A stretch of 39,606 nt of DNA from Elusimicrobiota bacterium (lineage in GTDB: Bacteria > Elusimicrobiota > Elusimicrobia > UBA1565): positions 1 to 39,606 of the forward strand of contig JACRDU010000068.1 of the NCBI GenBank assembly GCA_016218495.1, written 5' to 3'. Under the pieces are notes generated by a model that saw only the letters and a list, made by a program, of their open reading frames with translations, had not been told where the DNA came from and ran no database searches. Numbering within the stretch: the stretch's first letter is position 1; every line of letters starts with the position of its first letter. Positions 6,535 through 39,606 of the stretch are shown in pieces. The translations under genes and the position numbers were made by a program.

Positions 6535-7272
6535 CTACTTATAGGACATCAGGCGGCGCTCGAGCACCAGAGGCACGGTGCCCTGCATCATCCCGATGAC
6601 CCCCTCCACGACCATGGCCTTGATCTTGATCTCCTCCCACAGGCGCATGCGCAGCTTGCCGGCCACCGGGATGCAGACCAGGTTCGCGAACATGATGCCG
6701 TAGAAGGCCGAGGTGATGGCGATGGCCATGGACCCGCCGACGGCCTTCGGGTCGGAGATCTGTTGGAGCACCTTGATGATGCCCAGGAGGGTGCCGATCA
6801 GGCCGAACATCGGGCTGACGACGCCGGCGGTGCGGATGACGTTGATGACCTCGTTGGCCCGGTCGACCTGGTTGTTGACCTCGGCTTCGAGGACGCGGCG
6901 CACGAAGTCGGGGTTGTTGTACTCGAGTGCCGTCGTGGACGCCGCTCCGAGGAAGCCCGCGGCGACGTTGGGGTCGGCGGCGCGCAGGGCCTGGAGCCCG
7001 CCCTGCTGGACCTGCTCGGCGAGGCGCACCAGGATGGGGATCAGCGCGCCCGGCTCGCCGTAGGGGTCGGAGCGGAACATCGCGAAGCAGGCCATGAAGG
7101 TGTCCTTGACGTAGGTCAGCGGCGTGTTTATCAGCATCGCGGCGAAGGTCCCGCCGAAGACGATCAGGATGCCGTGGGCGTTGACGAAGATGGCCCCTAC
7201 CTCGCCGCTCATGACGCCCAGCGTGATGAGGAGGGCGATTCCGGCCGTCCCTGCGACGGTTGCGAGGTCCAT
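6535..7272 (-). CDS. motA: MotA-like stator protein
   Basis: The 245 residues fit the MotA family in length and layout: two N-terminal membrane helices (about 5-22 and 33-50), a cytoplasmic loop of about 95 residues that in MotA touches FliG, and two C-terminal helices (about 150-170 and 184-203). The two functionally important prolines are present: Pro154 in GVVSPMFGLIGTLLGI and Pro202 in NLVCIPVAGKLRMR. MotA surrounds the MotB channel helix and converts proton flow into force on FliG. The ATG shares one base with the stop of the coiled-coil gene (TGATG), which indicates translational coupling, and the MotB-like gene follows after 2 nt. A FliG domain two genes upstream provides an obvious partner. 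Confidence 0.9.
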   Translation of the reverse strand: MDLATVAGTAGIALLITLGVMSGEVGAIFVNAHGILIVFGGTFAAMLINTPLTYVKDTFMACFAMFRSDPYGEPGALIPILVRLAEQVQQGGLQALRAADPNVAAGFLGAASTTALEYNNPDFVRRVLEAEVNNQVDRANEVINVIRTAGVVSPMFGLIGTLLGIIKVLQQISDPKAVGGSMAIAITSAFYGIMFANLVCIPVAGKLRMRLWEEIKIKAMVVEGVIGMMQGTVPLVLERRLMSYK

Positions 7273-18500: not shown

Positions 18501-21500
18501 CGAAGGTCCAGGCCCCGACACGCTCCCGGGAGGGCAGCGGCACCGGGTTGAGCCCGGCCAGGGGGTCGAGCACCGTCAGCTGGACGGTGGCCCCGACGGC
18601 CAGATTGGTCATCTGCGACTCAGCCAGCACCCCGCCCGTGGAGTTGCTGTGCTGGTAGGCGCTGGTCGAGGGCGGGTTCACGTCCACCGTGAAGTTGACC
18701 GGGTCCGAGAAGGAGGAGGCCACGTCGAAGGCGTTCAGCGCCCTGACCCGCCAGAAATAGGTGGTGCCGTTGGTCAGCGAGGTGGGCGAGGCGAAGGGGC
18801 TGTTGAGGGTCAGGGAATTGACGATCATCGCGCTGAAGTCCGCGCCGGTGGAGACCTGCACGGTGTGTTTGGGCATCGTGCTGGCCTCGACCCAGGCGAA
18901 GTCGGGCAGGGTCTCGCGCATGTAGCGCGCCGGCGCGGGACTGTAGGCGGTGGGCTGCGAGAGCAGGGCGTCGACCAGGATGGCGAACGGCCCGGCCTGA
19001 CCGACCCGGCCCGCGCGGTCGGTGGCCGTGAAGCGGACCTGGTTCGTCGCCGTGCAGGAGGCGCTGCCGGCGCACAGCGTCCCCGCCGCCGACGCGGCCA
19101 GGTTCAGGCTCGTCACGGAGAGGGTCTGGGGGGCCACGCTGCCCTCGGCCCCGGTCAGGGAGACGGCCAGAGGCGTCGACACCAGGACCTGAGCGTCGCC
19201 CGAGGCCTCGCTGAGGCCCGCATACAGCCTGCCCGAGAAGGGCGCCAGGGCCAGCACCCTGTCGTTGAGGCTGGGCAGCGTCCTGACCAGGGCCCAGCTC
19301 TTGCCGTCGAAGGCGTAGACCCGGCCGTTGGAGGGGAGGGCGGAGGCCGCGTAGAGCCGCCCGGCGTGGACGGCCAGGGCGTCGGAGGCCGTCTCCGGCG
19401 GGTCGTAGCTGACGCTCCAGACGGCGCCGTCGAACTGGTAGACGATGCCGGAGTTGTTCGTCGCGGCATAGAGCTTCCCGTCGTAGGCAGCCATCGCGTT
19501 CACCGCGGCGCCCACCGCGAAAGACGCGGTCCAGGTGCTGCCGTTGAAGGCATAGACGTTCGGGTTGGCTCCGGCGAACAGGCGGCCGTCGTAGACGGCG
19601 AGGGATTCGACCACGCTGCTGGTCGACTGGAAGGACAGGAACCATTGGGCCTTCGTCGGCTCATAGCCCCAGACCCGCCCCGCGCTGTCGCCGGCGTAGA
19701 GCCGCCCGCCGTAGCTCTTGAGGGCCCGCACCGCGACCCCCCCGAAGGAGGCCTCCAGGGACCAGGACACCCCGTTGTAGGAGTGCACCTGCCCGTTAGC
19801 GTTGAGCCCCGCGTAGAGCTTCCCGCCGAAGCTCTCCAGCGCCAGGACGGACTGGCCCAGGTTCGTCGAGAGGCCCCAGACCGCGCCGTCGTAGGACCAC
19901 ACCCTGCCGGTGGCGGTGGCGCCCCAAAGGGAGCCCTGGTGGCGGGCCAGCACCCGGAAATCCGTCTGAGCGGCGTCCGCCAGGGCCGTCCCCCAGGTCC
20001 CGTCCTGCCACAGGGGCAGGGCCTGCGCCCCCTGGGTCGTGTACATCACGCCGTAGGGCACCGCCCCGTCCGCCAGAGGCGAGAGCGCCAGGCCGGCGGG
20101 GCCGGAATCTGCCAGCGTCATCTGCGCCGTCACGCCGCTGGCCAAAGACAGGCCCACCGCTTCGCCGGTGTAGCCGCCGGTGGAATTGATGGTGGCGAAG
20201 GCGGAGGCGACCGGGGAAGAGAAGTCGGTGACGAAGCTCGACACGGTCAGCGCGGGCGAGGCGACGTTGAGCCAGTCGCGGGCGCGCACGCGCCAATAGT
20301 AGGTGGTGCCGTGGGCCAGGGAGAACGTCGAGACGTAGACGCCCCGGGTGAAGGTCGCCGCGGAGCTGACGACCACCACGGGGGTCGAGATGGCGACGGC
20401 GGGCGAGGAGAAGTCGGACTGGTCGTCGACCTCGAGCAGGAAGCTGGCGGCCGAGCCCATGCCCGCGGCCGTGGCCGTGCTCGGGCCGTCCCAGGCGAAG
20501 CTGGGGCGCGTGCTGACGAAGACCCCCGGCGAAGGGAGGGTCGGGGTGGAGACCGCCGCGGCGGCCACGGTGTCGACGATGACGGTGAACGGCCCGGCCA
20601 GGGTGAAGTTCCCCTTGCGGTCCGCGGCCAGCACCCGCAGCAGGTTCGTGCCCGCGGCCCCCGTGGCCGTGGTGGTGGAATGGGTCAGGACCAGGTCTTT
20701 GACGATGATGGTCTCGGCGCCGGTCGCGCCGTCGGCGCCGGTCTGGCTCACATACGGGAAGCCCGCGGCGGGGAAGGTCGCGCTGACGACGTTCCAGGCC
20801 GCCCCCGCCGTGGTCGAGTATTCGACGCAGAAGCGGCCGGGCACCCCGCGCGCGTAGTCGGCGGCCACCTCCTGCGAGTCGGCCGCGTAGCCCAGGACCT
20901 TGACCTCGTCGATGTCGCCGGTGAAGAACCCTTCCGGGGTGACTCCGTCGGCGCGGAATCCCGCGCCGACCGAGAAGGGCATCGTCCCCCCGCCGGAGTT
21001 GGGCTGCCCGGTGCTCTCGGAATGCCTGAGCACGCCGTTTACGTAGAGCCAGACCCGCGTGCCCTTCTGGACGGCCGTCACATGCTGCCAGGCGCCCGCC
21101 TGGATGAGGCCGTTGGGGCTCAGCGCCCCGCCGCCCGTGGCGTTGGTGAGGCGCAGGGCGCCCAGGCTGTTCACATAGAGGACCCAGTTGCTCCCCGGAG
21201 AGGTCAGGGGCGCGCCGAGCCCGGCGATGACCTGGTTGATCCCGGTCACGGAGGCCGGCTTGATCCAGGCCGAGACGGTGAATGTGGAGGCCGGAGGGAA
21301 CTGGAACGACCCGTTCGCCGCCGACAAGTACTGGTTCGAGGCCAGCCTGAGCCCCGCGCCGAACGGGGTCGGGGCGTAGCGCGGGTTCTGGCAGGCGCCG
21401 AAGCAGCCGAGCGCCCCCGCCAGCCCCTGGGCCTCGTCGTTGGGCGCGCCGCCGTCGCGCTCGCTGAAGCGCCAGTAGGCCAGCGTCCCCGGGGCCGTGG

Positions 21501-24500
21501 ACAGCGACAGCGCCTGCCCCAGGCCGGACAGCGCGTCGGAGGCCGAGAGCTGCACCGTCGCGCCCGAGAGGAGGTCGATGGGGCCGGTCTCGCCGAACAC
21601 CCCGCCGGTCGAGTTGTTGACGATGAAGGAGGAGACGGCGGGCGTCGTGACGTCGACGACGAAGCCGTACGCCGGGCCCCAGGGGCCGAAGACGCCCAGC
21701 GAGCTCTTCGAGCGGACCCTCCAATAATAGGTCGTGCCGGCCCCCAGCGCCGGGAAGGTCGAGACGTAGACGCCGGTCACCCGGGAGAACAGGGCGTCGC
21801 TGACCAGGGCGGGCGTGGAGATGCTGATGATGATGTTCGGCGCGGCGAACGCCGCGTCGGCGCTGGAGACCTGGAGGAAGAACTGGCCGCCCAGGCCCTG
21901 CACGAGCGCGGTGGACGGCCCGGCCCAGTAGAAGTCGGGGCGCGGCCCGGTGTAGGTCCCCGGCGAGGGGAGGCTGGGCGTCGACACCGCCACGGGGGCG
22001 TTCGTGTCCACCAGGACGGAGAAGGGTCCCGCGGTCTTGACGTTGCCCGCTAGGTCGGCGAAGTGGAAGCGCACCTGGTTGGTCCCCAGCGCCCCGGTCT
22101 GCGTCCAGGTCGAGACGACCAGGTCCAGGCCCCGTGCCAGCAGGGAGGAGGGGCCCGCGGCGCCGTGGGCGGCCTGCAGCTCCACATAGGACCCCGCCGA
22201 GGGTACGGTGGCGTTCACGACCTTCCAGGAGCGCCCGGTGTCGGTGGAGTAGGTGACGTAATACGGGTCGCCGCGCAGGGCCGACGCGGCCAGCTCGGCC
22301 TCGGTCTTGGCGTAGGAGAGGATGCGGACCTCGTCGAGGCCGCCGCGCAGGCCGGCCCCCAGGTCGGTGGCGCCCACATAGAGCGTGCCGGCGCCGGTCG
22401 ACTGCGCGCCAAAGGCCTGGGTCCCGATGCGCACCCCGTCGGCGTAGAAGCGCGCCTCCGCACCGTCCCAGGTCATGGCCACATGGTGCCACGCCCCGGT
22501 GCTCAGGTCCGGGGAGAAGCGCACCGAGGCCCCGCCGAAGTCGGCCCCCAGCCTGCGCCCGGAGACCTGGAAGCGGTTGAAGCCAGAGGCCCCGCCCGCG
22601 CCCCAGGAGACCAGGCCCTGCACGCCCTGGGTGGAGGCCAGGTTCACCCAGGCCTCCACAGTGCGCGCGGCGTTGCCCGTCGGCAAAGAGGCCGGGGACG
22701 CGTTCTGGGCCCAGGAAGCGCTGCTCAGGCTCAGTCCGGCGTCGAAGCGCCCGGCCCCCCGCCCGGCGCCCGAGGCCGTCAGGGTGTTCCCCGCGGGCCC
22801 GGCGTCGGCCCAGTTCCCCGAGGCCTCGTCGAAGTGCCACAGGCTGACCGTCCCGCTCGAGGCGGCGAAGGGCGCCGGGCCGTCCAGGTTCAGCCCCGAG
22901 GCCGCGTCGCTGACCGTCAGCTGGGCGGTGACCGCGGAGGCCAGGTCGTTGAACAAAGCCTCGCCCAGCGGGGCGCCCAGGGAATCCAGGCTGGCGAAGG
23001 AGGCCGCGACGGGCGCCGTGCGGTCGAGCCAGAACGGACCGAGGTCGACCTGCGTCCCGGAGGAGGAGAAGACGTCGAACGCGCGGGCATGGAAATACCA
23101 GTCGTTGTTGTCGCTGGTCGCCGTCACCGTGGTCTTGCCGGCCGACCAGGAGACCGGCTCGGTGTCGTCCACCTGGGTGGCCGGGGAGCGGTCCCAGCGC
23201 CACTTGACGTAGGAGATGTTCCCGGCGCCGAAGGCTGCCTGGAACACCGTCGAGGAGACGTTGAGCCAGGTGCCGGTGGAGGGCTCGGCCGTCACCAGGG
23301 CCTGGGCCGCCACGATGGGGGCGGTGCCCGGCGCGATGGGGAAGTTCCCGGAGAAGACCGTGTCGGTGGACCCGGACAGCGTGAAGGCCGCCGTCGACGG
23401 CAGGATGAGGCCGATGCTCTTGGTGTTCTCGGCGCTCCCCGTGACGTTCCAGGACACGAAGTAGGTCTTGGTGGAGGCGTCGATGGTCTGGGCCAGGGCG
23501 GTGAAGGTGGCGGCCACGACGGCGAAATCCACGCCCCCCGGGGTGAGCAGGGTGTCGGACGCCGTGTTGAAGAGGCCGTCGCCGTTGTCCTTATAGAGCT
23601 TGAGCGTGCTGACGCTGTTGTTGGCCGCCGTCCCGGTGGACGTGACGGCCAGCTGGCCGACGGTGATGAAGTCCCCCCCGGTCCAGAGCTTCAGGCTCAT
23701 GACCGGGACGTTCGTGTCGTTTCGGAAGAGGGCCGAGGGCAGGAGCGAGGCGGCCTGGACGAAGAGGGTGTCGGACGCGTCCGTCACGGCCGTCCCGGTC
23801 GAGCGCGCGTAGCCCTTGGCCTGGCCCTCGCTGGCGGTGACCAGGGCGTTGACCGACGAGTCGGCGGCGAAGCCGTCGGCGGCCAGCCCGTCGAAGTGAT
23901 AGAGCACCGCGGCTCCGGCCTGGACGTTGCGGCGGGCGGGCGGGAGCTCGGCCGGATAGCGCACGAAGTTCGCGACGCGGACCTCGTCCATCTGCCCGAG
24001 GAACGGCACGGCTCCCCCCGAGGAGTTGGGGCCGCCGATGGAGAGGTCGCTGGCCGCGTCCGCCAGCGTGCCGCCCATCGAGCCGGTGGAGAGCCCTACG
24101 CCGTCGAGAAATATCTGTCCCGCCCCGGCGTTGAAGACGGCGGCTACGTGGTGCCAGCGCCCGTCGGTGACGACCCGCTGGCCGGAGGCGTCGGCGGCGC
24201 ACAGCACAGAGGAGCCGACGAAGAAGCTGGGCACGCCGGCCGAGCACCCCCCGGCGCCCAGCCAGAGGCGGTAGCCGTTGTTGCCGCCGTTTACGCCTCG
24301 GCTGACGATGGCGGCGTTGGCGCGGGCGGTGTCGGTGGAGCGGACCCAGGCCTCGACCGTCACCTGGGTCTGGGCGTCGATGGCCAGGTTGTAGCCGGTG
24401 TTCAGGCGGTCGTCGATGCCGTCGAAGGACATGGCGGGGAAGTCCACGGCGTCGACGCCGCCCCCGGTGACCGTCAGCGCCTCGCCGTCGAGGCGCAGCG

Positions 24501-27500
24501 AGACGCTGTCCCCTTCGACGGGCAGGTAGTCGGAGCGGATGGTGGCCGCCACGAAATAGGTCCGCGTGGAGTTCTGGATGTTCTCCGGCACGGGCAAAGT
24601 CAGGGTCGCCCGGCTGGACACGAAGACGGCCGGGGAGGACTTGAGGCCCGTGAGGTCGCCGGAGGTGAAGGCCTCGTCGCCCCCGGAGTCGAGGTAGAGC
24701 CCCACGTTGGAGATGGCCGCGTCCGGGAGCGTGCCGAACTTGCGGACCGCCACCTTGGCCAGGCTCTGGGTGTTCCCGGTCCCCTCGGTCCACAGCCGCA
24801 GGCGCAGGAAGGAGGTGGTCTGGCCCTGCAGGACGGAGAAGGCCGCCGCGTCATGGACGGCCTCGAGCATGATGCGCGCGAACACGCTCTGGGAGTTGGA
24901 GAGGGCGGAGCGCGAGCCGTAGGAGTCCTTCGTCGTCAGGGCGAAATACCAGGTCTTCCCCGGCACCACCGGGACCAGGACGGTGACGGGGGCGCCGGCC
25001 GTGCCCTGGGCCGAGACCAGGCGCTGGTTGGGAGCGGCGATGTACTTGGCGTTGCTGTCGATGGCCCCCGCCGAGGTCCAGCGCACGTCGTAGACGGCGG
25101 CGCTGCCCAGGTCGCCAGCGCCGGCGTCCTCGCCGGGGGCGGTGAAGGTGATGGAGACCCAGGTCGAGGAGGAGGTCTCGACGGTGCTGTCCTGGGCGGC
25201 CGTGATGACGACGGCCGAGGGCGGGGTCAGGTTGAGGCTCTGCTGGGCCGATTCGGCGCTGCGGGCGTAGCCCGCGTCCTCGGCCGCCACGGCCCAGTAG
25301 AACACGCCGTTCTTCGGGACGCTGGAGAGCCGGATGCCGGGCTGCGCCGCGCTCAGACGGTCCGCGAAGACCCGTGAGCGGCCGCGCTCGGAGTTCGCCG
25401 CGGGGATGCGCAGGTACTCCGAGCCCGCGCTGTTGGTGCCGACCCGCACTCGATACAAGAGGGCCGCCGCGGGTGTCGTGTTGTCGGTGGCGGCGGTCCA
25501 CTGCAGGGTCAGCGTCCCCGAAGAGGAACCGACCGAATCCTCGCTCCAAGACGCCGCGAAACCGGCCGACGGCACGCTGGGCGCGGCGGTGCTGACGGCG
25601 AGGTCGTTGCGCAGCAAGAGTTCATCCTTGTTGTCGTAATTGGCCAGGAGGGCGTCAAGGTCCCCGTCGTTGTCGTAGTCGCCCCAGGCGACCGCCAGTG
25701 AATTCCCGGCCGTCCCCGTCAGGGTCACCTTGGTCAGCGTCCCGCCCCCATCGTTGCGCAGCAAGACCTCGTCTTCGGCCACGCCGTTGGCGACGAGGGC
25801 GTCCAGGTCTCCATCGCCGTCATAGTCGCCCCAGGCGATGCCGTCGGAATATCCGCCCGTCCCCGTCAGAGTGATCTTCGTGAACGTCCCGCCGCCGTCG
25901 TTGCGCAGCAGGACCTCGTCTTCGGCGGCGAGATTGGCCACGAGGGCGTCGAGGTCTCCGTCGTTGTCGTAGTCGCCCCAGGCGACGCTGTAGGAAGCAC
26001 CCCCCGTCCCGGTCAGCGTCACCGTGGAGAATATCCCTCCCCCGTCGTTGCGCAGCAGGACCTCGTCCTCCACGCCCGCATTGGCGACGATGGCGTCGAG
26101 GTCTCCGTCGTTGTCGTAGTCGCCCCAAGCCGCGGCGACGGAATTGCCCGCCGTCCCCGTCAGAGTCACCTTGGTGAACGTCCCGCCGCCGTCGTTGCGC
26201 AGCAGGACTTCGTCTTCGCCGCCCGCGTTGGCCACAAGGGCGTCAAGGCGTCCGTCGTTGTTGTAGTCGCCCCAGACCACAGCGCGCGAATTCCCGCCCG
26301 TCCCCGTCAGCGCCACCTTTGTCAGGACTCCGCCGCCGTCGTTGCGCAGCAGAAACTCGTCTTCGCCGCCCGCGTTGGCCACGATCGCGTCGAGGTCTCC
26401 GTCATTGTCGTAGTCGCCCCAGGCCACGCCGGTGGAATTCCCGCCCGTTCCCGCCAGAGTCAGCTTGGTAAACATCCCGCCACCGTCGTTGCGCAGCACG
26501 ACCTCGTCCTGGCTGTTGTAATTGGCCACCAGGGCGTCGAGGTCCCCGTCGTTGTCGTAGTCGCCCCAGGCGACGGCCCAGGAATTCCCCGCCGTGGCGG
26601 CCGGCGCCCAGAAGTACGACTGCGCGGTGGCGGCATTGGAGAGGCTGGAGGCGAAGGACAGCGCGTCCGTGGTCTTCACGACGAAGTACCAGGTCGTCAG
26701 CGGGTCCAGCGTGAAGGTCAGCGTCTGGCGCGAGCCGGGGATGACCGTGTAGGTGACGACGTCCAAGGAGTAGTTGGCGATGGAGTAAGCGGCTTCCGAG
26801 GCCATCGGGAAGGTGGCCCAGCGCACGGAATAGGTCGAGCCGTTGAGCTGGCCGAAGTCGCCGTTGTCTCCCGGCGCCGTCCAGGAGAGGGTCACGGTCT
26901 GGGAGCTCGCCCCCAGGCCGGTGGAGACGACGGAGACGGCCAGGTCGGTGATGGCGCGGGGGGAGTCAGGGACCCAGAGCGGGGAGTTGACCAGGGTGCC
27001 GTCGAGCCCGTTGCCGGAAGCGTCCGCCGCGGTCGTGCCGGAGCCCTCGTCGAAGTGCCAGAGCCCGACGAGTCCCGTCGTGGGTCCGGTGCTCTTGAAC
27101 ATGTCGGCCTGGATGGCGGCCGTCGTGCGCGCGATGTTCCAGAGCCTGACTTCGTCGATGGCGCCCTGCATCGAGAAGCCCGCGTCGCGGTTCCCGAGAT
27201 AGAGCAGGGCGGAGGCGAATGCCGGGGTCGGGACCCCGCCGGCTCCCCCCGCGAACTGGCCGTTCACATAGAGGCGCGCTCCCGAAACCGCGGCGTCGTA
27301 GACGCCCGCCACGTGAACCCAACGGTTCATGGGGATGTCGGCGGAGGTGACCACGCCGAAAGTCCCCCCGAAATTGAAGCGGGCGTTGTTGGTCGACGGC
27401 CCCGTTGGGCAGACCTCCAGGGCATAGCCGTTCTGGCTGTCTTTGTTGATGATGGACGGGCACAGGCCGTTGACGGCCGATGTCGTGAAGACCAGCCCTT

Positions 27501-27672
27501 CGACGGTGAAGCTGCCGGCGGGCTCGAGCAGCGCGTCGTCGGCATGGATGACCCGCGCCGCGCCGGCCCCCTCCTCGCCGTTCATGCGCAGCGCATAGCC
27601 CGCCCAGGACGCACGGACGCCGCCCATGAGGAGGGCGGCGGCCGCAATCAGGGTTCCCAGGCGGGGAGGCAT
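12574..27672 (-). CDS. Giant modular exported surface protein (LamG, FN3, VCBS, propeller, repeat domains, FlgD-like C-terminal sorting domain)
   Basis: The frame encodes about 5032 residues from the ATG at 27672 (a GTG at 27675 is in frame). A signal peptide ends near ASWA. In order from the N-terminus: LamG/concanavalin-like domain (27.6-26.95 kb); FN3; seven VCBS/FG-GAP repeats (26586-25600); FN3-like domains; two copies of a roughly 150-residue domain alternating with two LamG domains; FN3-like domains with the phrase VSTPSLPSPG; a fourth LamG; a propeller-like block (20.03-19.19 kb); a fifth LamG; eight further 150-residue repeats (17.35-13.59 kb); FN3; and a C-terminal domain of about 105 residues with VYPNPFDSRKTSGKIHYVLS, WDGSDDSGAKVSKGLYLLVL and a basic end. 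The last is the FlgD-Ig/type IX-like sorting pattern. The probable role is adhesion or surface display; that is inferred from domains. Many DxDxDG loops suggest calcium stabilisation. Confidence 0.85.
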   Translation of the reverse strand: MPPRLGTLIAAAALLMGGVRASWAGYALRMNGEEGAGAARVIHADDALLEPAGSFTVEGLVFTTSAVNGLCPSIINKDSQNGYALEVCPTGPSTNNARFNFGGTFGVVTSADIPMNRWVHVAGVYDAAVSGARLYVNGQFAGGAGGVPTPAFASALLYLGNRDAGFSMQGAIDEVRLWNIARTTAAIQADMFKSTGPTTGLVGLWHFDEGSGTTAADASGNGLDGTLVNSPLWVPDSPRAITDLAVSVVSTGLGASSQTVTLSWTAPGDNGDFGQLNGSTYSVRWATFPMASEAAYSIANYSLDVVTYTVIPGSRQTLTFTLDPLTTWYFVVKTTDALSFASSLSNAATAQSYFWAPAATAGNSWAVAWGDYDNDGDLDALVANYNSQDEVVLRNDGGGMFTKLTLAGTGGNSTGVAWGDYDNDGDLDAIVANAGGEDEFLLRNDGGGVLTKVALTGTGGNSRAVVWGDYNNDGRLDALVANAGGEDEVLLRNDGGGTFTKVTLTGTAGNSVAAAWGDYDNDGDLDAIVANAGVEDEVLLRNDGGGIFSTVTLTGTGGASYSVAWGDYDNDGDLDALVANLAAEDEVLLRNDGGGTFTKITLTGTGGYSDGIAWGDYDGDGDLDALVANGVAEDEVLLRNDGGGTLTKVTLTGTAGNSLAVAWGDYDNDGDLDALLANYDNKDELLLRNDLAVSTAAPSVPSAGFAASWSEDSVGSSSGTLTLQWTAATDNTTPAAALLYRVRVGTNSAGSEYLRIPAANSERGRSRVFADRLSAAQPGIRLSSVPKNGVFYWAVAAEDAGYARSAESAQQSLNLTPPSAVVITAAQDSTVETSSSTWVSITFTAPGEDAGAGDLGSAAVYDVRWTSAGAIDSNAKYIAAPNQRLVSAQGTAGAPVTVLVPVVPGKTWYFALTTKDSYGSRSALSNSQSVFARIMLEAVHDAAAFSVLQGQTTSFLRLRLWTEGTGNTQSLAKVAVRKFGTLPDAAISNVGLYLDSGGDEAFTSGDLTGLKSSPAVFVSSRATLTLPVPENIQNSTRTYFVAATIRSDYLPVEGDSVSLRLDGEALTVTGGGVDAVDFPAMSFDGIDDRLNTGYNLAIDAQTQVTVEAWVRSTDTARANAAIVSRGVNGGNNGYRLWLGAGGCSAGVPSFFVGSSVLCAADASGQRVVTDGRWHHVAAVFNAGAGQIFLDGVGLSTGSMGGTLADAASDLSIGGPNSSGGAVPFLGQMDEVRVANFVRYPAELPPARRNVQAGAAVLYHFDGLAADGFAADSSVNALVTASEGQAKGYARSTGTAVTDASDTLFVQAASLLPSALFRNDTNVPVMSLKLWTGGDFITVGQLAVTSTGTAANNSVSTLKLYKDNGDGLFNTASDTLLTPGGVDFAVVAATFTALAQTIDASTKTYFVSWNVTGSAENTKSIGLILPSTAAFTLSGSTDTVFSGNFPIAPGTAPIVAAQALVTAEPSTGTWLNVSSTVFQAAFGAGNISYVKWRWDRSPATQVDDTEPVSWSAGKTTVTATSDNNDWYFHARAFDVFSSSGTQVDLGPFWLDRTAPVAASFASLDSLGAPLGEALFNDLASAVTAQLTVSDAASGLNLDGPAPFAASSGTVSLWHFDEASGNWADAGPAGNTLTASGAGRGAGRFDAGLSLSSASWAQNASPASLPTGNAARTVEAWVNLASTQGVQGLVSWGAGGASGFNRFQVSGRRLGADFGGASVRFSPDLSTGAWHHVAMTWDGAEARFYADGVRIGTQAFGAQSTGAGTLYVGATDLGAGLRGGLDEVRILSYAKTEAELAASALRGDPYYVTYSTDTGRSWKVVNATVPSAGSYVELQAAHGAAGPSSLLARGLDLVVSTWTQTGALGTNQVRFHFADLAGNVKTAGPFSVLVDTNAPVAVSTPSLPSPGTYTGPRPDFYWAGPSTALVQGLGGQFFLQVSSADAAFAAPNIIISISTPALVSDALFSRVTGVYVSTFPALGAGTTYYWRVRSKSSLGVFGPWGPAYGFVVDVTTPAVSSFIVNNSTGGVFGETGPIDLLSGATVQLSASDALSGLGQALSLSTAPGTLAYWRFSERDGGAPNDEAQGLAGALGCFGACQNPRYAPTPFGAGLRLASNQYLSAANGSFQFPPASTFTVSAWIKPASVTGINQVIAGLGAPLTSPGSNWVLYVNSLGALRLTNATGGGALSPNGLIQAGAWQHVTAVQKGTRVWLYVNGVLRHSESTGQPNSGGGTMPFSVGAGFRADGVTPEGFFTGDIDEVKVLGYAADSQEVAADYARGVPGRFCVEYSTTAGAAWNVVSATFPAAGFPYVSQTGADGATGAETIIVKDLVLTHSTTTATGAAGTNLLRVLAADRKGNFTLAGPFTVIVDTVAAAAVSTPTLPSPGVFVSTRPSFAWDGPSTATAAGMGSAASFLLEVDDQSDFSSPAVAISTPVVVVSSAATFTRGVYVSTFSLAHGTTYYWRVRARDWLNVASPALTVSSFVTDFSSPVASAFATINSTGGYTGEAVGLSLASGVTAQMTLADSGPAGLALSPLADGAVPYGVMYTTQGAQALPLWQDGTWGTALADAAQTDFRVLARHQGSLWGATATGRVWSYDGAVWGLSTNLGQSVLALESFGGKLYAGLNANGQVHSYNGVSWSLEASFGGVAVRALKSYGGRLYAGDSAGRVWGYEPTKAQWFLSFQSTSSVVESLAVYDGRLFAGANPNVYAFNGSTWTASFAVGAAVNAMAAYDGKLYAATNNSGIVYQFDGAVWSVSYDPPETASDALAVHAGRLYAASALPSNGRVYAFDGKSWALVRTLPSLNDRVLALAPFSGRLYAGLSEASGDAQVLVSTPLAVSLTGAEGSVAPQTLSVTSLNLAASAAGTLCAGSASCTATNQVRFTATDRAGRVGQAGPFAILVDALLSQPTAYSPAPARYMRETLPDFAWVEASTMPKHTVQVSTGADFSAMIVNSLTLNSPFASPTSLTNGTTYFWRVRALNAFDVASSFSDPVNFTVDVNPPSTSAYQHSNSTGGVLAESQMTNLAVGATVQLTVLDPLAGLNPVPLPSRERVGAWTFEGTGATVYDLSGQGLGGRLGSASLRGTGYQGGGLTFPVGLTGMAISTSPVGSWTGLTAAAWVKVSANNTLSQTVLASKHFRFQADSAQGRVRFRMDAAATGGCSLATPMSYPLGSWVHLALVLDPGATRNRVFVNGDTAAECVGTAVLSDTPFTVGIDTVSALGGTDVFNGSLDELRIFSAPLSTAPVREEMAGSPFSVLYSTTAGATWSAAASTGPAGPRLSFSAVPGSLALEALRVVDLPLHESSSAVLCAQVSPCAATNQVVYYVPDRAGGVRTAGPFAVVVDTSVPLPLLTSLTPLSTDTLHATAAATDNLAGVKDLLFEASTSAAFALPLSSSGFVAQSTWSFTGLIDATTYFVRVWTRDNLLNVSTPSVASSSATFGTVFFTTASAVPASALQGAFVPMATLKLATKQAATSRLLGLRVRKTGSIPDSDITQAQLYSDSDGDGVYSGGDTLQAFGTLALNEAQLTLAGQGAPLDVLVSTFHVVFKLAPGAITNNTVGLEISSTTSVSLKHPGRAEGTFPVTAGPLVVTDGANFLNITPANLAPSAITPGVDNIPVLELRSQTDTGTSIVSSVTVTMSGTTPTSKIRSVNLWRDADPEDGIFDANTDIRMTGDADNFGIQTVATMSVAGFDVSSRTVTTSPRRFFVTVSLAADAPQDTSFQLALPATTSVILQNLADTVSFSTTVITSTVGVILNNTITVSAIDETPAVFVQGERFAVLRVTATVDQGAAQVNRFTLRLTGNGQSSDIDAVEVWKDATVDGKSLNANLDVRVGSAAYVAGLATVDISTQTLVAGTSSVFFLAYVLDPAAAPGVTLGAKLNDGDIRAGNSGTTVSGTFPIESSSRTVQATVNRMLILNAIKDISPGALLQGQQHAAMLRLDVISDKNDFSWLGLSVERLGTAPDSAVSAVNVYRDFDGNGLFDVAVDSRLSSGADAFAASTANLTMLQVQTVTQSTRSYFVTLSVAANATPGQTLGVRISSTASFNLLAPNALSTATALPIQTGVVPVSQFQNTITVSTASIVPALGAEPGTTDVALMSLTMKTDVSNAVWQSLRVDQAGTAADSDVKAVKLYYDFNDVGTFDSSNLVQYSSVSFSTQTFGGNGPGSVILNFTGPQTLGTAAKRYFLVVDLSTGATPARTLIVRASTGAFFTVNAPNQVVPSASFTSAALTINAPPVTMGVVGASSAPATAVQGTPNIVMLAFKARTNAYSARWTQLRVTRTGTGADADVTAVKLYRDADGTGTLDIVSDERISTGTFSGGTVLLAFSTQTITVATQTYFVTFDLRTTAAAGNTVGARIAAAGDLKVESPDTVDTAGFPLQSGAAAVVATQSGLFVTPTNMAPGELKQGATEQVLLSLALQTTQYALSWSALTVRSTGSASDSDIKALSVWLDANLNGAVDIGTDTKITSGLNAFLGGTAVLSLSQVQDIGTAQKRYLITADIAAFAEPGRTFAVILTSTAAFSVSAPNFIVNSGFPAQSDANATLRKLEESLLLTPTDLVGAGVNQGANVALAKLAVRASRNRVGWTALNIRQNGNLGAGEIDSVGIWRDSNGDGQLSSADLLVGSAAFSGSQAAVAFSSAQTVGASTQTYFLAVQPNISATVGADIRLSVQSVDFSITSPDAVAATNLPFNTASAVVLDAKTPSLPVVTDAGSYSSDFEGLSFSWSSSVGTGTLSGAFYAVGTTPGGTDVRSWTAVSAALTSVRATGFPLTQATTYYVSVKTQSSFGFDSPVGVSDGVLMDFQSPIKPAITVSAGSGALLVTWTSVPGGPSGILGYLIEYRTGASPQWINAKTGEKTSVKALSRPAAGGAAPADFSVLAVSSSALATGTSFQASGLPAGTLLVRVSAVTGSGVLSGASDETKVQLGPLPTDGISNASVYPNPFDSRKTSGKIHYVLSANAEVSIRVYSVFGRLIREMSFAPGSTGGLAGSNTVSWDGSDDSGAKVSKGLYLLVLQSGGAKVIVKTGVIH
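13590..17345 (-). repeat. Eight tandem copies of a domain of about 150 residues within the giant gene
   Basis: Copies begin near 17345, 16890, 16415, 15935, 15460, 14960, 14505 and 14035, about 460 nt each. The shared frame is: an opening strand such as LFVTPTNMAPGELKQG, a hydrophobic strand (LLSLALQT), W..L.V...GT..DSDI.AV.LY.D, a calcium-type loop (RDFDGNGLFD, RDADGTGTLD, RDSNGDGQL), then TQTYFV and a closing SVxxPN strand. Two more diverged copies lie near 24.4-24.9 and 23.3-23.8 kb. Sequence divergence between copies indicates old duplication. Confidence 0.75.
19190..20030 (-). other. Propeller-like repeat block within the giant gene
   Basis: About seven to eight units of roughly 35-40 residues repeat the pattern ...L..YDG.LYAG....G.VY.F.G..W (for example AYDGKLYAATNNSGIVYQFD, SFGGKLYAGLNANGQVHSYN, VYDGRLFAGANPNVYAFNGS). 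This Gly/Trp/Tyr pattern resembles beta-propeller blades of the kelch or YncE-like type. The count fits one closed propeller. The family was not assigned. Confidence 0.6.
25600..26586 (-). repeat. Seven 147-bp VCBS/FG-GAP repeats within the giant gene
   Basis: The unit is exactly 147 bp (49 residues) with the core AWGDYDNDGDLDA, then VAN, EDEVLLRNDGGG and a strand TKVTLTGTGG. The first copy starts at 26586 and the seventh, truncated after about 35 residues, ends near 25600. DxDxDGxxD loops are calcium sites of integrin-like FG-GAP/VCBS propellers, and seven blades is the usual number for a closed propeller. The copies are much more alike at DNA level than the other repeats in the gene. Confidence 0.9.
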
Positions 27673-27684
27673 CACGCTATAGGA

Positions 27685-34821: not shown

Positions 34822-37440
34822 ATGAGGAAGACACTCGCTCTGACGCTGTGCGCGGCCCTGGCCGCGGGAACGCTCCCGGCCCCCGCCGCGGCCCAGTTGG
34901 CCGTCAGCGGCGCGCGCACCGCGGGGACCGCCGTCGCCCCCGTCGTCGTGCCCATGGCCCCCTTGGGCGGGGCGAACCTAATCTCCCCCACGGCGTCCTT
35001 GACCTCCCTGGCGCCGACCCTTCCGACGACACCGCTCCCCGTGCTGAGCGCGCCTTCCGCCGCCGCCCAGGCCTCCGCCTCCGTCCCCACCCAGGCCGTC
35101 CCGTCCGCCCAGGCCGTCCTTCCCGCCCGTTCCGCCGCTTCGGCCGCGCCGGCCCAAGCCGCCCGGGCCGCGTCCGTGCAGGCCCCCGGGACTCCCGCCG
35201 CCGCGGTCGCACAGACTTTGAAGGCCGTCCGGGAATCCGGGACCGACAGCGAAGCCGCCCCGCTCGCCGGCATGTCCCCCGCCGCCGCCGCGCAGGTCTC
35301 CGGCCGCCTCTTCGACAACGGCGCGCTGCGCTCCGACAACGGCGTCAGGGCCCCGGCCGTCGTCACCCGCCCGCTCTCCGCCGGGATGCGCCTGGCCAAG
35401 CGCGCCCTGGCCGTGTCCCCCCTCGGACGTCTCCTGCCCGCGCAGACCGCCCAGGACTGGGGCCGGGCGCCCCCGGCCCCTCGGACGGCCTTCTCCTCCG
35501 ACGAGTTCGGCGGCCCCCAGCCGCTCAAGCCCGCCGCCTCCGAAGGCGGCCGCCTGCGCCGCGCCGCCGCCTGGCTCGGCCGGGACCTGGCCTACGGCGC
35601 CAAGTGGGCGCTGACCCTCTTCGGGCTTTCCGGGCTGCTCCAGATCACCGTGAAGCCGCTGGCCGCCATGGTGCCCTGGGTCGAATCCATCCCCCACGGG
35701 CTGATGGGCGCCTTCGGACGCTTCGAGTTGCTGGCCGGCTTCGGCCCATATGAGATCGCCCAGGGCGTGGCCGAAGCCCCGCTGACCTTCCTCGGCCTGG
35801 CCGTCCCCGGCGCCGTCCTCATGGAGGAGCTGACCTACCGCCTGGCCTCCTTCGGCCTGAGCTTCCTCTTGCTGAGCGCCGTCCGGCCCGCCGCCCAGGG
35901 CCTGGCCGCCTTCCTCGACAAGGTCCCCGACCTCTTCGGGGTGCGCTCGGCGGCCCAGTGGGCCCTGCGCAAGGCCGCCGCGGTCTCCGGGCTCGCCTTC
36001 CCGCTGGCTGCGTCCTACTCGGCCTACGCCTTCGCGGCCGCCCACTTCGCCGCCTGGGGCGTGGCTCCCTTCACCCTGGCGCTGCACCTGTCGCTGGGCC
36101 TGGCGCTGGCCTGGACGGCGTACCGCAGCCGCGGGCTGGTCGCGCCTTTCACGGCGCACCTGGGCTACAACCTCCTCTCCATCGCCGTCGGCGTGGCCGC
36201 CCCGCTGCTGATGCTGCCCCAGGCCGCGGCCCTGACCGCCGTGCTGGCCGGGGTCTTCGCGGCCTCCTTCGCCTACTACCAGTGGCGCTCGTGGAAGAAA
36301 GACAAGGCGGCCGCCCTCGACGCCGCGCTGGGGCGCACCGCCCCGGCCCCGGCCTCCCTGTGGGCGCGCGCCCGGCGCATCGCCACGGCCGCCCTGGTGC
36401 CGGTCGTCCTCGCGGCGGGCTTCGGCTCGGCCTTGAACCGCGCGCCGGCCCCCGTCCCGTCGCTGCCGGCTGCCGCCGCACCCGCCGCTGCCGCTCCGGC
36501 GGCTCCCGCCCCCGCCAAGGCCGCCGTCCGGCCGACCCTCTCCACCGAGGACCTGGTCAAGGCGGTCAAGCCCGCCACCGTGATGGTCCTGGTCGGCAAC
36601 GGCCTGGGCTCGGGCTTCATCATCTCCCCCGACGGCCTGCTCGTCACCAACGCCCATGTGGTCGCCGGCGGCGGCAAGGAAGACCCCCTCGCCACGGACT
36701 ACGCCCGCGTGGTGAAGATCCGCTTCGCCAACGGCATGGAGGTCCCCGCCCGCGTGGTCGGCTACCACCCGACCAAGGACCTGGCCCTCATCCAGCTGCC
36801 GCCCAACCCCTTCGGCTGGCCCACCGTCCCCATCGGCGACTCCTCGGCGCTGGCGGAAGGCGAGGCCATCGTAGCGGCCGGGCACCCGCGCGGCCTGCCC
36901 TTCACCGTGACCCGCGGCATCGTCAGCGGCGTCGAGTTCCGCTCCAACGGCTGGGTGAAGTACATCCAGCACGACGCCTCGGTCAACCCGGGCAACTCCG
37001 GCGGCCCGCTCTTCAACATGCGCGGCGAGGTGGTCGGGGTCAACTCGATGATCATGACCATGTCCGGCGGCTTCGACGGCATCTCCTACGCCATCACCGC
37101 CGCCGACGTGCAGGCCGCCCTCGACCAGTACGCCAAGGTGGGCAACATCTCGCCGGCGTGGCTGGGCGTCATCCTGCAGCGCGGCGGAGGCTCCTCCGAG
37201 TTCGGCGTCGAGGTCGACGGCGTGCGCCCCGAGTCCCCGGCCGCCAAGGCCGGGCTCAAGGGCGGCGACCTCCTCATCGGCATCGACGGGCGCTCGGTGG
37301 CCGGCGACCCGGAGATTGCCCTGAAGGCGCTGGCCGTCACCCTGCGCCACAAGATGCCGGGCGACGCCATGCAGCTGCAGGTCTACCGCAACGGCGGGGT
37401 CGTGACGATGACGGTCACCCTCGCCCCTCCCGCGCCCTGA
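34822..37440 (+). CDS. CPBP intramembrane protease fused to an HtrA-type serine protease with PDZ
   Basis: The 872-residue protein starts with a signal peptide (1-24). Residues 25-240 are an Ala/Pro-rich leader with an LFDN box at 163-166. Residues about 255-540 are a multi-pass CPBP (Abi, PF02517-type) domain with all three motifs: Glu335-Glu336...Arg340 (EExxxR), Phe404...His408 (FxxxH) and His446...Asn450 (HxxxN). A last helix (about 520-537) leads into an Ala/Pro linker, then a trypsin-like HtrA/DegP domain (572-770) with His612 (TNAHVV), Asp653 (DLALIQ) and Ser726 (GNSGGP), and a C-terminal PDZ domain (776-868). Both active sites look intact. The first presumably cuts within the membrane and the second in the periplasm. 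The ATG at 34822 is chosen because it gives the signal peptide and follows the TACCCT element; the frame is open further upstream. Confidence 0.88.
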   Translation: MRKTLALTLCAALAAGTLPAPAAAQLAVSGARTAGTAVAPVVVPMAPLGGANLISPTASLTSLAPTLPTTPLPVLSAPSAAAQASASVPTQAVPSAQAVLPARSAASAAPAQAARAASVQAPGTPAAAVAQTLKAVRESGTDSEAAPLAGMSPAAAAQVSGRLFDNGALRSDNGVRAPAVVTRPLSAGMRLAKRALAVSPLGRLLPAQTAQDWGRAPPAPRTAFSSDEFGGPQPLKPAASEGGRLRRAAAWLGRDLAYGAKWALTLFGLSGLLQITVKPLAAMVPWVESIPHGLMGAFGRFELLAGFGPYEIAQGVAEAPLTFLGLAVPGAVLMEELTYRLASFGLSFLLLSAVRPAAQGLAAFLDKVPDLFGVRSAAQWALRKAAAVSGLAFPLAASYSAYAFAAAHFAAWGVAPFTLALHLSLGLALAWTAYRSRGLVAPFTAHLGYNLLSIAVGVAAPLLMLPQAAALTAVLAGVFAASFAYYQWRSWKKDKAAALDAALGRTAPAPASLWARARRIATAALVPVVLAAGFGSALNRAPAPVPSLPAAAAPAAAAPAAPAPAKAAVRPTLSTEDLVKAVKPATVMVLVGNGLGSGFIISPDGLLVTNAHVVAGGGKEDPLATDYARVVKIRFANGMEVPARVVGYHPTKDLALIQLPPNPFGWPTVPIGDSSALAEGEAIVAAGHPRGLPFTVTRGIVSGVEFRSNGWVKYIQHDASVNPGNSGGPLFNMRGEVVGVNSMIMTMSGGFDGISYAITAADVQAALDQYAKVGNISPAWLGVILQRGGGSSEFGVEVDGVRPESPAAKAGLKGGDLLIGIDGRSVAGDPEIALKALAVTLRHKMPGDAMQLQVYRNGGVVTMTVTLAPPAP

Positions 37441-37502: not shown

Positions 37503-38852
37503 ATGAACGCCCACTCCCAGAAGATCGTCATCTGCGGCGGCCGCCGCACCCCGATCGGCCACATCTCCCGTTCGCTGTCCGGCGTGCGCGCCGACGATTT
37601 GATGGTCGAGGCCGTCAAGAGGACCGTCGAAGACGTCGGGGTCCCCAAGGGAGAGGTGGACGGCCTCATCGCCGGCTGGGTCGGGCAGGACTTCGCCGCG
37701 CCCAACCTGGCCCGGGTCTGCCTGCTGCGCGCGGGACTGCCCGAGCGCGCCCAGGCCGTCACCGTCCAGAACAACTGCGTCTCCTCCATCGAGGCCGTGG
37801 CGATGGCCGCGCGCTTCATCCTGGCCGGCGACGGGGAGCTCTATGTCGCGGGCGGCGTCGAGGTGATGAGCCGCCTGCCCTACACCATCGTCGGCTCCCG
37901 CGCGGCCAAGGAGCTGCGCTCGCTGGCCACGGTCAAGGAGAAGTGGGGCGAACTGCTGGCCTCCCCCGACGTCGCCGTCGTCGACGCGATGGAGATGGGG
38001 CTGACCGACCCCGTGCGCGGCATCAACATGGCCGCCACGGCAGAGGTCTGCGCCCAGATGTACGGCGTCACCCGCGAGGCCCAGGACGACTACGCCTTCC
38101 AGAGCTTCAAGCGCTCCATCGACGGCTGGAACCGCGGCTTCTACAAGGACCACGTGTTCCCCGTGATGAAGGCCGACGGCACGCCCGCGCTCGAGAAGGA
38201 CGAGTACCCGTTCCTGCGCGAGGACCTGGTGGCCAAGCCGGCAAAGTTCGCCAAGGCCCCGGTCCTCTTCGACAACTCGGCCTACTCCATCAAGGACTTC
38301 TACCGCGACAACGCCAAGCACATGGACGGCAAGCAGTGGGCGGAGGGCGCCAAGGGCACGGTGACGCTCTTCAACGCTTGCGGCCGCTCCGACGGCGCCG
38401 CGGCCGTGGTCGTCGCCACCGAGGCGCGCGCCAAGGCCCTCAGCCTCCCCATCCTGGCCGAGCTCAAGGGCTGGGGCTTCTACGGCAACGACCCGGCGCA
38501 CATGGGCGTCTCTCCGGCGCTGGCCGCTCCGGTGGCCCTGAAGGCCGCGGGCGTGCGCTTCGAGGACCTCGACCAGGTCGAGCTGCACGAACCCTTCGCC
38601 GCCACCGTGCTCTCCATCTTCAAGCTCGGCAAGGAGCGCTTCGGCCACGACTGGGAGGCCAAGTTCAAGTCCGGGGCCCTCAACCCCAACGGCGGCTCCA
38701 TCGCCGTGGGCCATCCGCTGGGCGCCACCGGCGCGCGGCTGCTCTTGAACCTGCTCGGCGCCCTCAAGGAGAACCCGCGCGGACGCCTCGGGATGCTGGC
38801 GGCCTGCGCGGGCGGCGGGATGGGCGGGGCGCTCGTCGTCGAGAAGGCCTAG
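37503..38852 (+). CDS. 3-ketoacyl-CoA thiolase, FadI/trifunctional-beta-like
   Basis: The 449-residue protein is a complete thiolase. The nucleophile is Cys92 in VQNNCVSSIEAV; AGGVEVMSRLP follows. His362 lies in ELHEPFAATVL, where most thiolases read NEAFA; the HE.FA form is typical of FadI and mitochondrial trifunctional beta chains. The catalytic His404 is in GHPLGATG and the second Cys435 in ACAGGGMGG. It is slightly longer than bacterial FadI. The likely reaction is thiolytic cleavage of 3-oxoacyl-CoA in beta-oxidation. It is not in the same operon as the first thiolase: it lies on the other strand, behind its own promoter, 62 nt after the protease fusion. Its stop overlaps the convergent gene's stop by 4 bases. 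Confidence 0.92.
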   Translation: MNAHSQKIVICGGRRTPIGHISRSLSGVRADDLMVEAVKRTVEDVGVPKGEVDGLIAGWVGQDFAAPNLARVCLLRAGLPERAQAVTVQNNCVSSIEAVAMAARFILAGDGELYVAGGVEVMSRLPYTIVGSRAAKELRSLATVKEKWGELLASPDVAVVDAMEMGLTDPVRGINMAATAEVCAQMYGVTREAQDDYAFQSFKRSIDGWNRGFYKDHVFPVMKADGTPALEKDEYPFLREDLVAKPAKFAKAPVLFDNSAYSIKDFYRDNAKHMDGKQWAEGAKGTVTLFNACGRSDGAAAVVVATEARAKALSLPILAELKGWGFYGNDPAHMGVSPALAAPVALKAAGVRFEDLDQVELHEPFAATVLSIFKLGKERFGHDWEAKFKSGALNPNGGSIAVGHPLGATGARLLLNLLGALKENPRGRLGMLAACAGGGMGGALVVEKA

Positions 38853-39606
38853 CGGCGGCGGCGGAGCTCGGCCGCCACCTCGCGGTAGAGCCCGTCGTAG
38901 TAGGCGGCCAGCTCGTCTGGGTGGCCGCGCCAGCTCTCGAGCAGCCCGCGCGGCGCGGCCGCCTCGACGCCCTCGGCGTCGACCACCCAGGCCTGGCGCG
39001 CGCGCTTCGACGCCGTCGTGCCCACCATCAGGTTGTCGAGCAGGTGCACGCGGTCGGTGAGGCGCAGGCGCGCCTCGGTCAGGCTCTTGAAGAGGGCGCG
39101 CACCAGCGGGAGGTCCGCCTCCGACGCCTCGGCCAGGGTCGTGCCGCTCACCTTCTCAACCACCAGATAGTGTATGGTCTGGGACCCTTTGTCCCGGGTC
39201 TCGCGCAGCGCCCCCGAAACGGCAACGGCGGGCGCGACGCCCAGGCCGGCTAGGCGCCGCCGGCCGGCCAGCTCCACATCCCGTTCGGTGCGGCTGATGG
39301 ACGGGTCCGGGCGAAGGTGCTGGTTGAAGAGGGCCAGGACATGGTCCGGGCTGCGCGGGTGGGCGAGGACGTCCTTGATGCCTCCGCCGCCCACGTACTC
39401 CACCGCGGCACCATCCACGCTCCAGTCCCGGCGGCGCGCCGAGCCGCGGTGACCGACCTCCCCCACCGTCAGGCCGGCGGGAGCGGACACGGCCGCGGCG
39501 GGACTCCGGGCCGCGGAGCCGTCGAAGAGGGCCGCGGCGCGCGCGGCGGCGTCTGCGGGACCGGCCTCCGTCCCGGCGGGGGCCTCCTCCCTCCCGGCCG
39601 CGGCGG
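38849..39606 (-). CDS. Exported leader protein with kinase-like C-terminal domain (cut by right edge)
   Basis: The frame is open from the TAG at 38849-38851 to the window edge (last full codon at 39602-39604), so the N-terminus is missing; an internal GTG at 39490 is not the start. The first visible residues are Ala-rich and contain ALFDGSAARS, matching the LFDG/LFDN box in the leaders of the genes at 575-2014 and 34822-37440. The following 190 residues suggest a divergent protein- or phosphotransferase-kinase-like fold: IKDVLAHPRSP, YLVVEKVSGTTLAEASEADL as a hinge-like stretch, LLDNLMVGTT where a catalytic loop would be, and AWVVDAEGV resembling a DFG-type segment. The catalytic Asp of HxD is not at its usual place, so activity is doubtful. 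The function is otherwise unknown. Confidence 0.5.
   Translation of the reverse strand, partial: AAAGREEAPAGTEAGPADAAARAAALFDGSAARSPAAAVSAPAGLTVGEVGHRGSARRRDWSVDGAAVEYVGGGGIKDVLAHPRSPDHVLALFNQHLRPDPSISRTERDVELAGRRRLAGLGVAPAVAVSGALRETRDKGSQTIHYLVVEKVSGTTLAEASEADLPLVRALFKSLTEARLRLTDRVHLLDNLMVGTTASKRARQAWVVDAEGVEAAAPRGLLESWRGHPDELAAYYDGLYREVAAELRRRR

Follow-up and report, generated by a model that had tools for sequence, protein, structure and literature searches.

A CPBP-type membrane protease and an HtrA-PDZ protease joined in one conserved chain in an order of Elusimicrobiota

Architecture of the fusion gene

The window analysed here is the whole of contig JACRDU010000068.1 (39,606 nucleotides; assembly GCA_016218495.1) from an Elusimicrobiota bacterium. 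At 34822-37440 on the forward strand lies a gene that joins a CPBP-type intramembrane protease to an HtrA protease with a PDZ domain. It is a single open frame of 872 codons plus a stop codon; the ATG start is at 34822 and the stop was confirmed. The features of the gene are listed below, with counts from the alignment of 24 intact proteins described in the next section.

34822..37440, +: whole open frame, 872 amino acids; leader, CPBP part, transmembrane helix, HtrA and PDZ
34822..34893, +: putative Sec-type signal peptide, residues 1-24, MRKTLALTLCAALAAGTLPAPAAA, read from the sequence and from the hydrophobic N-termini of aligned relatives with complete 5' ends
34894..35271, +: leader rich in A, P and V and almost without charge, residues 25-150, poorly conserved
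35308..35319, +: FDG-type box LFDN, residues 163-166; F164 kept in 22/22 relatives that reach this column
35551..35673, +: long helix with the first hydrophobic segment, residues 244-284, basic residues just before it
35824..35841, +: CPBP motif 1, EExxxR, residues 335-340, 24/24
35881..35985, +: family-specific basic loop between motifs 1 and 2, residues 354-388, seen in the Glu-to-His spacing and net positive in 23/24
36031..36045, +: CPBP motif 2, FxxxH, residues 404-408, 24/24
36157..36171, +: CPBP motif 3, HxxxN, residues 446-450; H 24/24, N 23/24
36268..36372, +: strongly basic loop, residues 483-517, predicted cytoplasmic; net positive in 24/24, mean +4.9
36373..36435, +: last transmembrane helix, linking CPBP to HtrA, residues 518-538
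36436..36552, +: variable A/P-rich tether, residues 539-577; 53-93 residues from the end of the transmembrane helix to the first HtrA glycine in 24 proteins
36553..37116, +: HtrA trypsin-like domain with the triad H612, D653 and S726, from Pfam and alignment
37144..37425, +: PDZ domain, one only, from Pfam

A basic linker lies between the LFDN box and the hydrophobic CPBP core. Pfam places Trypsin_2 (PF13365) at residues 596-740 (1.5e-36) and PDZ_2 (PF13180) at residues 790-867 (5.1e-10). The Rce1-like family PF02517 matches residues 321-452 at 7.6e-4 and 20.2 bits in the protein-level search, below the cut-off of 22.4 bits; in the whole-genome search the same stretch reaches 24.5 bits, above that cut-off, and is the sole PF02517 match in its genome. 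All 27 fusion-type places found in the order lie above the cut-off, one of them (G010) only after neighbouring matches were joined in frame. No M50 domain is listed by Pfam in the membrane part. The protein stays below the cut-offs of the Do family (TIGR02037, 222.5 against 416.2), of DegS (TIGR02038, 119 against 422.95) and of the MrtJ-type sorting CPBPs (NF033192, 15.9 against 75), and the top Protein Data Bank (PDB) matches of the HtrA part are DegP-like proteins and MucD.

Both catalytic sets are complete and conserved

A first-pass annotation, made from the DNA letters alone, had read two complete catalytic sets in this one chain, and its reading proved exact: EELTYR at 335, FAAAH at 404, HLGYN at 446, and H612, D653 and S726 were verified at those positions. 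None of the residues E335, E336, R340, F404, H408, H446, H612, D653 and S726 varies among the 24 intact proteins, although the R340 match in genome G048 rests on the alignment, since a long insertion separates the EE pair from the rest of motif 1. N450 of HxxxN is kept in 23 of the 24 and is T in G010. Invariant columns number 19 of 246 in the CPBP part and 23 of 291 in HtrA-PDZ, and none is found among 239 in the leader or 92 in the tether; the naive chance of the catalytic residues being invariant is 9e-8 for the six CPBP residues and 4e-4 for the triad. Median pairwise identity is 39% for CPBP, 46% for HtrA, 36% for PDZ, 17% for the leader (residues 26-150) and 21% for the tether. By this pattern both active sites are held by strong purifying selection.

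The first Glu of EExxxR lies 73-75 residues from the His of FxxxH in 23 of the 24 members, against 32-41 residues in ordinary CPBPs of the same order (n = 19), and the extra residues between motifs 1 and 2 are the basic loop. The exception is the fusion of G048 (L161), in which the motif-1 insertion raises the distance to 160. As judged from its sequence, the CPBP core of the fusion is a distinct subfamily. An AlphaFold2 model of residues 225-539, made with five sequences, has a predicted TM-score (pTM) of 0.65 and a mean predicted local distance difference test score (pLDDT) of 64.8; from the full-length model, also with five sequences (pLDDT 43.8, pTM 0.29), the helix list alone was used. 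A VIA-align comparison with 775 chains ranked SpdC first (6u0o; Z 8.8, 168 residues, 5.9 Å) and Rce1 second (4cad; Z 6.2, 161 residues, 5.3 Å). SpdC is described as a member of the CPBP family (PMC12067869). A CPBP-profile search of PDB sequences gave a chance match only.

A second large CPBP subfamily is present in the order (L202, L206, L209 and L213, in G023, G022, G021 and G020). Its frames are about 700-790 amino acids long where complete, with many transmembrane segments and extra residues between the motifs; no fusion partner was identified in them.

Age and joint inheritance of the fusion

Searched with a CPBP-region profile, 27 of the 56 genomes of the same Elusimicrobiota order give a strong match (E 2e-38 or better); they are spread over 10 of its 19 genera and all three of its families. 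When only genomes with completeness of 90% or more and contamination of 5% or less are counted, the figure is 18 of 36, which leaves out the weak matches that ordinary CPBPs give in G033 and G034. In 294 genomes sampled evenly across the phylum, the profile had no strong match beyond the order, and the weak matches in G158, G243 and G246 lie in short frames. Nor was a free-standing complete copy of the fusion's CPBP subfamily seen among these 294 genomes. Four full-length relatives (L032-L035) come from the metagenome-assembled genomes NC_groundwater_827, FW305_bin.15, CG_4_9_14_3_um_filter_62_55 and GWA2_69_24, three titled Elusimicrobia and one 'bacterium'. The carriers are a little-known groundwater bacterial lineage.

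Frames read from the fetched stretches place CPBP and HtrA-PDZ in one frame in 24 of the 27 genomes that have the CPBP part. Two of the remainder stop at contig ends (G028 and G043, the former already within the start of HtrA). In the third, the one-contig genome G024, the frame shifts within the tether, at a point that falls from residue 521 to residue 524 of the aligned relative, and HtrA then continues at 82% identity; this may be a sequencing error or decay. The first-pass annotation had named frames split in relatives as one observation that would overturn its reading; this was not borne out, the exceptions to the 24 intact frames being this one frameshift and the two truncations. A chance frame or assembly artefact was also considered and rejected, given the 24 intact relatives.

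Separate trees of the CPBP and HtrA parts have 11 of 21 inner splits in common, among them the f1 clade, the g9 clade, g16, g13 and the pair G009/G010, and their distances correlate at r = 0.91. There is one local, well-supported conflict, the position of G020. When 44 unfused HtrAs are added, the fused rows form one group save for the very long branch of L018 inside it, a placement that is probably an artefact. The agreement of the separate trees indicates that the fusion is old and was passed on as a unit. On this sequence comparison the fusion is ancestral in one Elusimicrobiota order, and its CPBP half is always found with HtrA where the sequence is complete.

We also looked for independent fusions elsewhere by scanning a genome collection with an HtrA pattern; none was found beyond the family, other phyla not having been searched with CPBP models. 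Of the 80 loci that the scan kept, four hold the fusion; 75 HtrA frames were read among the remaining 76, and none has a CPBP part.

Predicted topology

The loops at residues 354-388, 434-441 and 483-517 carry a net positive charge in 23, 24 and 24 of the 24 proteins, and the stretch past the last transmembrane helix is slightly negative on average. By the positive-inside rule the three basic loops would be cytoplasmic and HtrA-PDZ is predicted to be extracytoplasmic. In 23 of 24 proteins the segment that precedes the first hydrophobic helix is net positive too, and by the same rule it would lie inside if that helix spans the membrane. In MmRce1 the termini are reported to face the lumen and the cavity to open towards the cytosol (PMC12067869), and the basic loops suggest that the CPBP part of the fusion is oriented the opposite way.

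The inverted arrangement, with HtrA in the cytoplasm and the fusion acting in cytoplasmic quality control, would follow from a cleaved signal peptide and seven further crossings, which bring the C-terminus inside. We regard it as very improbable: it would leave the three strongly basic loops on the outer side of the membrane in 23-24 of the 24 proteins.

The leader and the FDG box

F164 of the box is mostly part of FDG in the relatives. The combination of signal peptide, A/P-rich stretch without charge and [LV]FDG box also occurs on unrelated proteins, including members of the M48, M50 and M28 peptidase families, an amidase and proteins with no Pfam match. The leader did not emerge as an alignable family: in the source genome a hidden Markov model of nine leaders was significant only for its own two rows, with the next E values at 0.04-0.06. 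At the DNA level an [LVF]FDG pattern has 69 matches in the source genome against 16 when reversed, and a second FDG pattern has 767 against 142 in the 56 genomes, counts that take in ordinary FDG tripeptides. Thirty of the 69 matches were fetched, and seven of these (L222, L223, L229, L230, L238, L241 and L248) have 100 or more residues upstream, the last 100 of which are at least 79% A/P/V/S/T/L/G/Q; about five more look similar by eye (L226, L231, L233, L246 and L249). A leader module in Elusimicrobiota is thereby indicated, and a literature search found no published description of it.

The first-pass annotation proposed the leader-type N-terminus as a possible substrate of the protein. The leader is real and recurs on other proteins of the genome, but leaders also occur without the fusion (L201 of G011), and the crude box counts are untied to the fusion within genus g9. 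A broader version, in which the fusion is a peptidase that processes the FDG-box leaders of many exported and membrane proteins, its own included, is a reading to which we give little credence. Like leaders do occur on a polytopic protein of the window (575-2014, reverse strand) and on MFS-like, M48, M50, M28 and short CPBP proteins, and the excess of the FDG codon pattern over its reversal also fits. However, leader proteins are present in a genome without the fusion (again G011, L201), and although FDG density is higher where the fusion is present than where it is absent (5.0 and 3.45 per Mb, p = 0.03, kinship ignored), the association is weak and no fusion-linked difference is seen within g9 (p = 0.39). 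A lineage-wide FDG-box leader system, in which the fusion would remove or trim such leaders, its own and those of other proteins, by a cut outside the membrane and a cut within it, is quite improbable as well. The FDG box is a lead and falls short of evidence that the fusion cuts leaders.

Leader and tether could also serve the protein itself. In a self-maturation or shedding scheme, HtrA would trim its own leader or tether, or CPBP would cut the last transmembrane helix, so that one half activates or releases the other. The signal peptide, the long unstructured leader and the tether, the latter two with no invariant column, offer accessible sites, and MamE-dependent processing of MamE itself and of its partners has been described (PMC4794232). 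Apart from F164, neither tether nor leader has a conserved cleavage site, and this scheme alone leaves the selection on both active sites unexplained; we consider it improbable.

Several individual proteins with an FDG-type box stand out. The protein at 575-2014 (reverse strand; box at 1493-1504) is polytopic and PQ-loop-like by eye, with a signal peptide, an A/P-rich leader and LFDG, and has no Pfam match at E 0.01. At 38849-39604 (reverse strand; box at 39518-39529) a frame cut at the end of the window and contig carries AAALFDGSAAR and is without a Pfam match. Elsewhere in the source genome (G000), L246 (contig C59, about 95950-96846) is an M50 match in a 1507-residue frame with an A/P-rich leader and an FDG-type box, and L241 (contig C57, about 22330) is an FDG-leader protein with a Peptidase_M48 match at 2.2e-4.

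A possible two-step protease

We tentatively favour, with somewhat less than even confidence, a bifunctional envelope protease in which a PDZ-captured substrate is cut outside and then inside the membrane, the two cuts being coupled in cis. HtrA-PDZ would lie outside the cytoplasm, and its PDZ domain would capture an exposed tail or a misfolded or unfolded segment of an envelope protein, as in DegS, for which PDZ capture has been described (PMC7593790, PMC10202637). HtrA would then cut the captured substrate beside the membrane, and the membrane stub would be passed to the CPBP cavity of the same molecule for the second cut. The site-1 and site-2 steps would thus occur in cis. The sequence of DegS then RseP is a precedent with separate proteins (PMC10202637). 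In favour of this reading are the single frame and its domains, the intact fusion in 24 of 27 genomes, the invariant catalytic residues, the agreement of the two trees, the lack of stand-alone copies of this CPBP subfamily, the charge of the basic loops, and the first and second ranks of SpdC and Rce1 in the structural comparison. The first-pass annotation had proposed two successive cuts on one substrate, or maturation of the CPBP part by HtrA. Its interpretation is supported in part: the fusion with its two complete, conserved catalytic sets is real and HtrA is predicted to be outside, whereas successive cuts and maturation by HtrA keep the status of proposals.

The main competitor is that two independent proteases share one chain. 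CPBP would cut its own membrane substrates, such as remnants of signal peptides or tails, and would also anchor a quality-control HtrA of the DegS/DegP kind, the two activities not being sequential. The variable and poorly conserved tether is consistent with this, as is the closeness of HtrA-PDZ to DegP and MucD in sequence, and polytopic anchors on HtrA-type domains are on record, for example MamO with its TauE domain (PMC4794232). A mere anchor, however, would leave the invariant residues of EExxxR, FxxxH and HxxxN unexplained, and the halves are separated in none of the 24 complete cases. We hold this alternative to be unlikely, though far from negligible.

Several findings weigh against coupled cutting in cis. 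The first concerns the fold: a Foldseek search with the CPBP model gave nothing significant (best E 0.26), and the VIA-align ranks of SpdC and Rce1 are supportive but not decisive of an Rce1 fold, as a Z of 6-9 may be commonplace among helical bundles. Second, the parity of the topology is inconsistent. A cleaved signal peptide puts the leader outside, and the counted transmembrane segments disagree with this; some segment must be non-spanning or re-entrant, for instance a first helix that makes no full crossing, or the N-terminal part must be unusual. The extracytoplasmic HtrA on which the first-pass annotation depended therefore agrees with the basic loops but not with the signal-peptide count. 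By eye, the same parity puzzle is seen in other leader-bearing polytopic proteins (the MFS-like L179 and the short CPBPs L195 and L201). Third, neither the length nor the sequence of the tether is constant, and the two sites thus give no sign of being docked in a fixed way. Fourth, 29 of the 56 genomes of the order, some of them incomplete, have no match to the fusion, which makes it look dispensable.

The surroundings of the gene add two further points on the same side. An all-against-all comparison of the genes flanking 23 loci, that of the window and 22 fetched ones, brought out no conserved operon partner, and no shared regulator or substrate was recognised. An anti-sigma factor beside the gene, for which the first-pass annotation had suggested looking, was not recognised in any of these loci. 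The neighbours differ by family: f1 and f2 share the block seen in the window (glycosyltransferase, thiolase and acyl-CoA genes), and f3 has other genes. Finally, M50 matches above cut-off occur in all eight genomes of the family that were searched, so a separate site-2 route exists in the relatives. Five of the eight have a full-length RseP-like M50 protein (E 1e-54 or better). The idea that the fusion stands in for RseP was rejected on these counts.

Relation to known systems

The fusion combines two known kinds of protease in a new, conserved single-chain architecture. With the CPBP/Rce1-like glutamic proteases (PF02517; MmRce1, 4CAD; SpdC, 6U0O; the myxosortase MrtX) it has EExxxR, FxxxH and HxxxN in common; it differs in that motif 2 lies about 35-40 residues further from motif 1, in fewer helices before motif 1 and in the attached HtrA-PDZ. 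DegS has one PDZ domain and a membrane anchor. With DegS, DegP and MucD (S1C) the fusion has the triad and PDZ in common, whereas its HtrA is anchored by a polytopic protease and scores below the Do and DegS cut-offs. The fusion could make the same two kinds of cut as DegS then RseP, a first one outside and a second within the membrane; it is however one chain and not two proteins, and has a glutamic CPBP and not an M50 metalloprotease. MamO likewise joins an HtrA-type domain to a polytopic TauE domain (PMC4794232), but in the fusion the catalytic residues are kept in both halves. CPBP is also a fusion part in the ABC permease-CPBP family NF041647, where the partner is an ABC permease; the fusion of the window scores 14 against that family's cut-off of 435.

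We found no published CPBP-HtrA fusion in the open-access literature. A 2008 survey (PMC2605481) tabulates a Colicin_V-trypsin architecture, a further case, beside MamO, of an HtrA-type domain on a polytopic membrane part, and gives PDZ as the commonest partner of trypsin domains; neither CAAX nor rhomboid occurs in its text. In the examples of regulated intramembrane proteolysis considered here different proteins make the outside and the membrane cuts, and the handover of the substrate is hard to study. A natural fusion of HtrA-PDZ with an intramembrane protease makes this handover directly testable in one molecule. It further demonstrates that an HtrA of the envelope can have a CPBP enzyme as its partner, and it offers a single polypeptide for structural work.

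Other observations in the window

Two other genes of the window are worth recording. At 8429-10873 on the reverse strand, an 814-residue frame joins HisKA and HATPase_c to FliF C-terminal, FliG middle and FliG C-terminal domains, an apparent kinase-FliF-FliG fusion; it adjoins the genes for MotA (6535-7272) and MotB/OmpA (5843-6532). At 12574-27675, also on the reverse strand, lies a single frame of 5033 residues with high third-position GC, a signal-like N-terminus and a start that by eye resembles LamG-type repeats.

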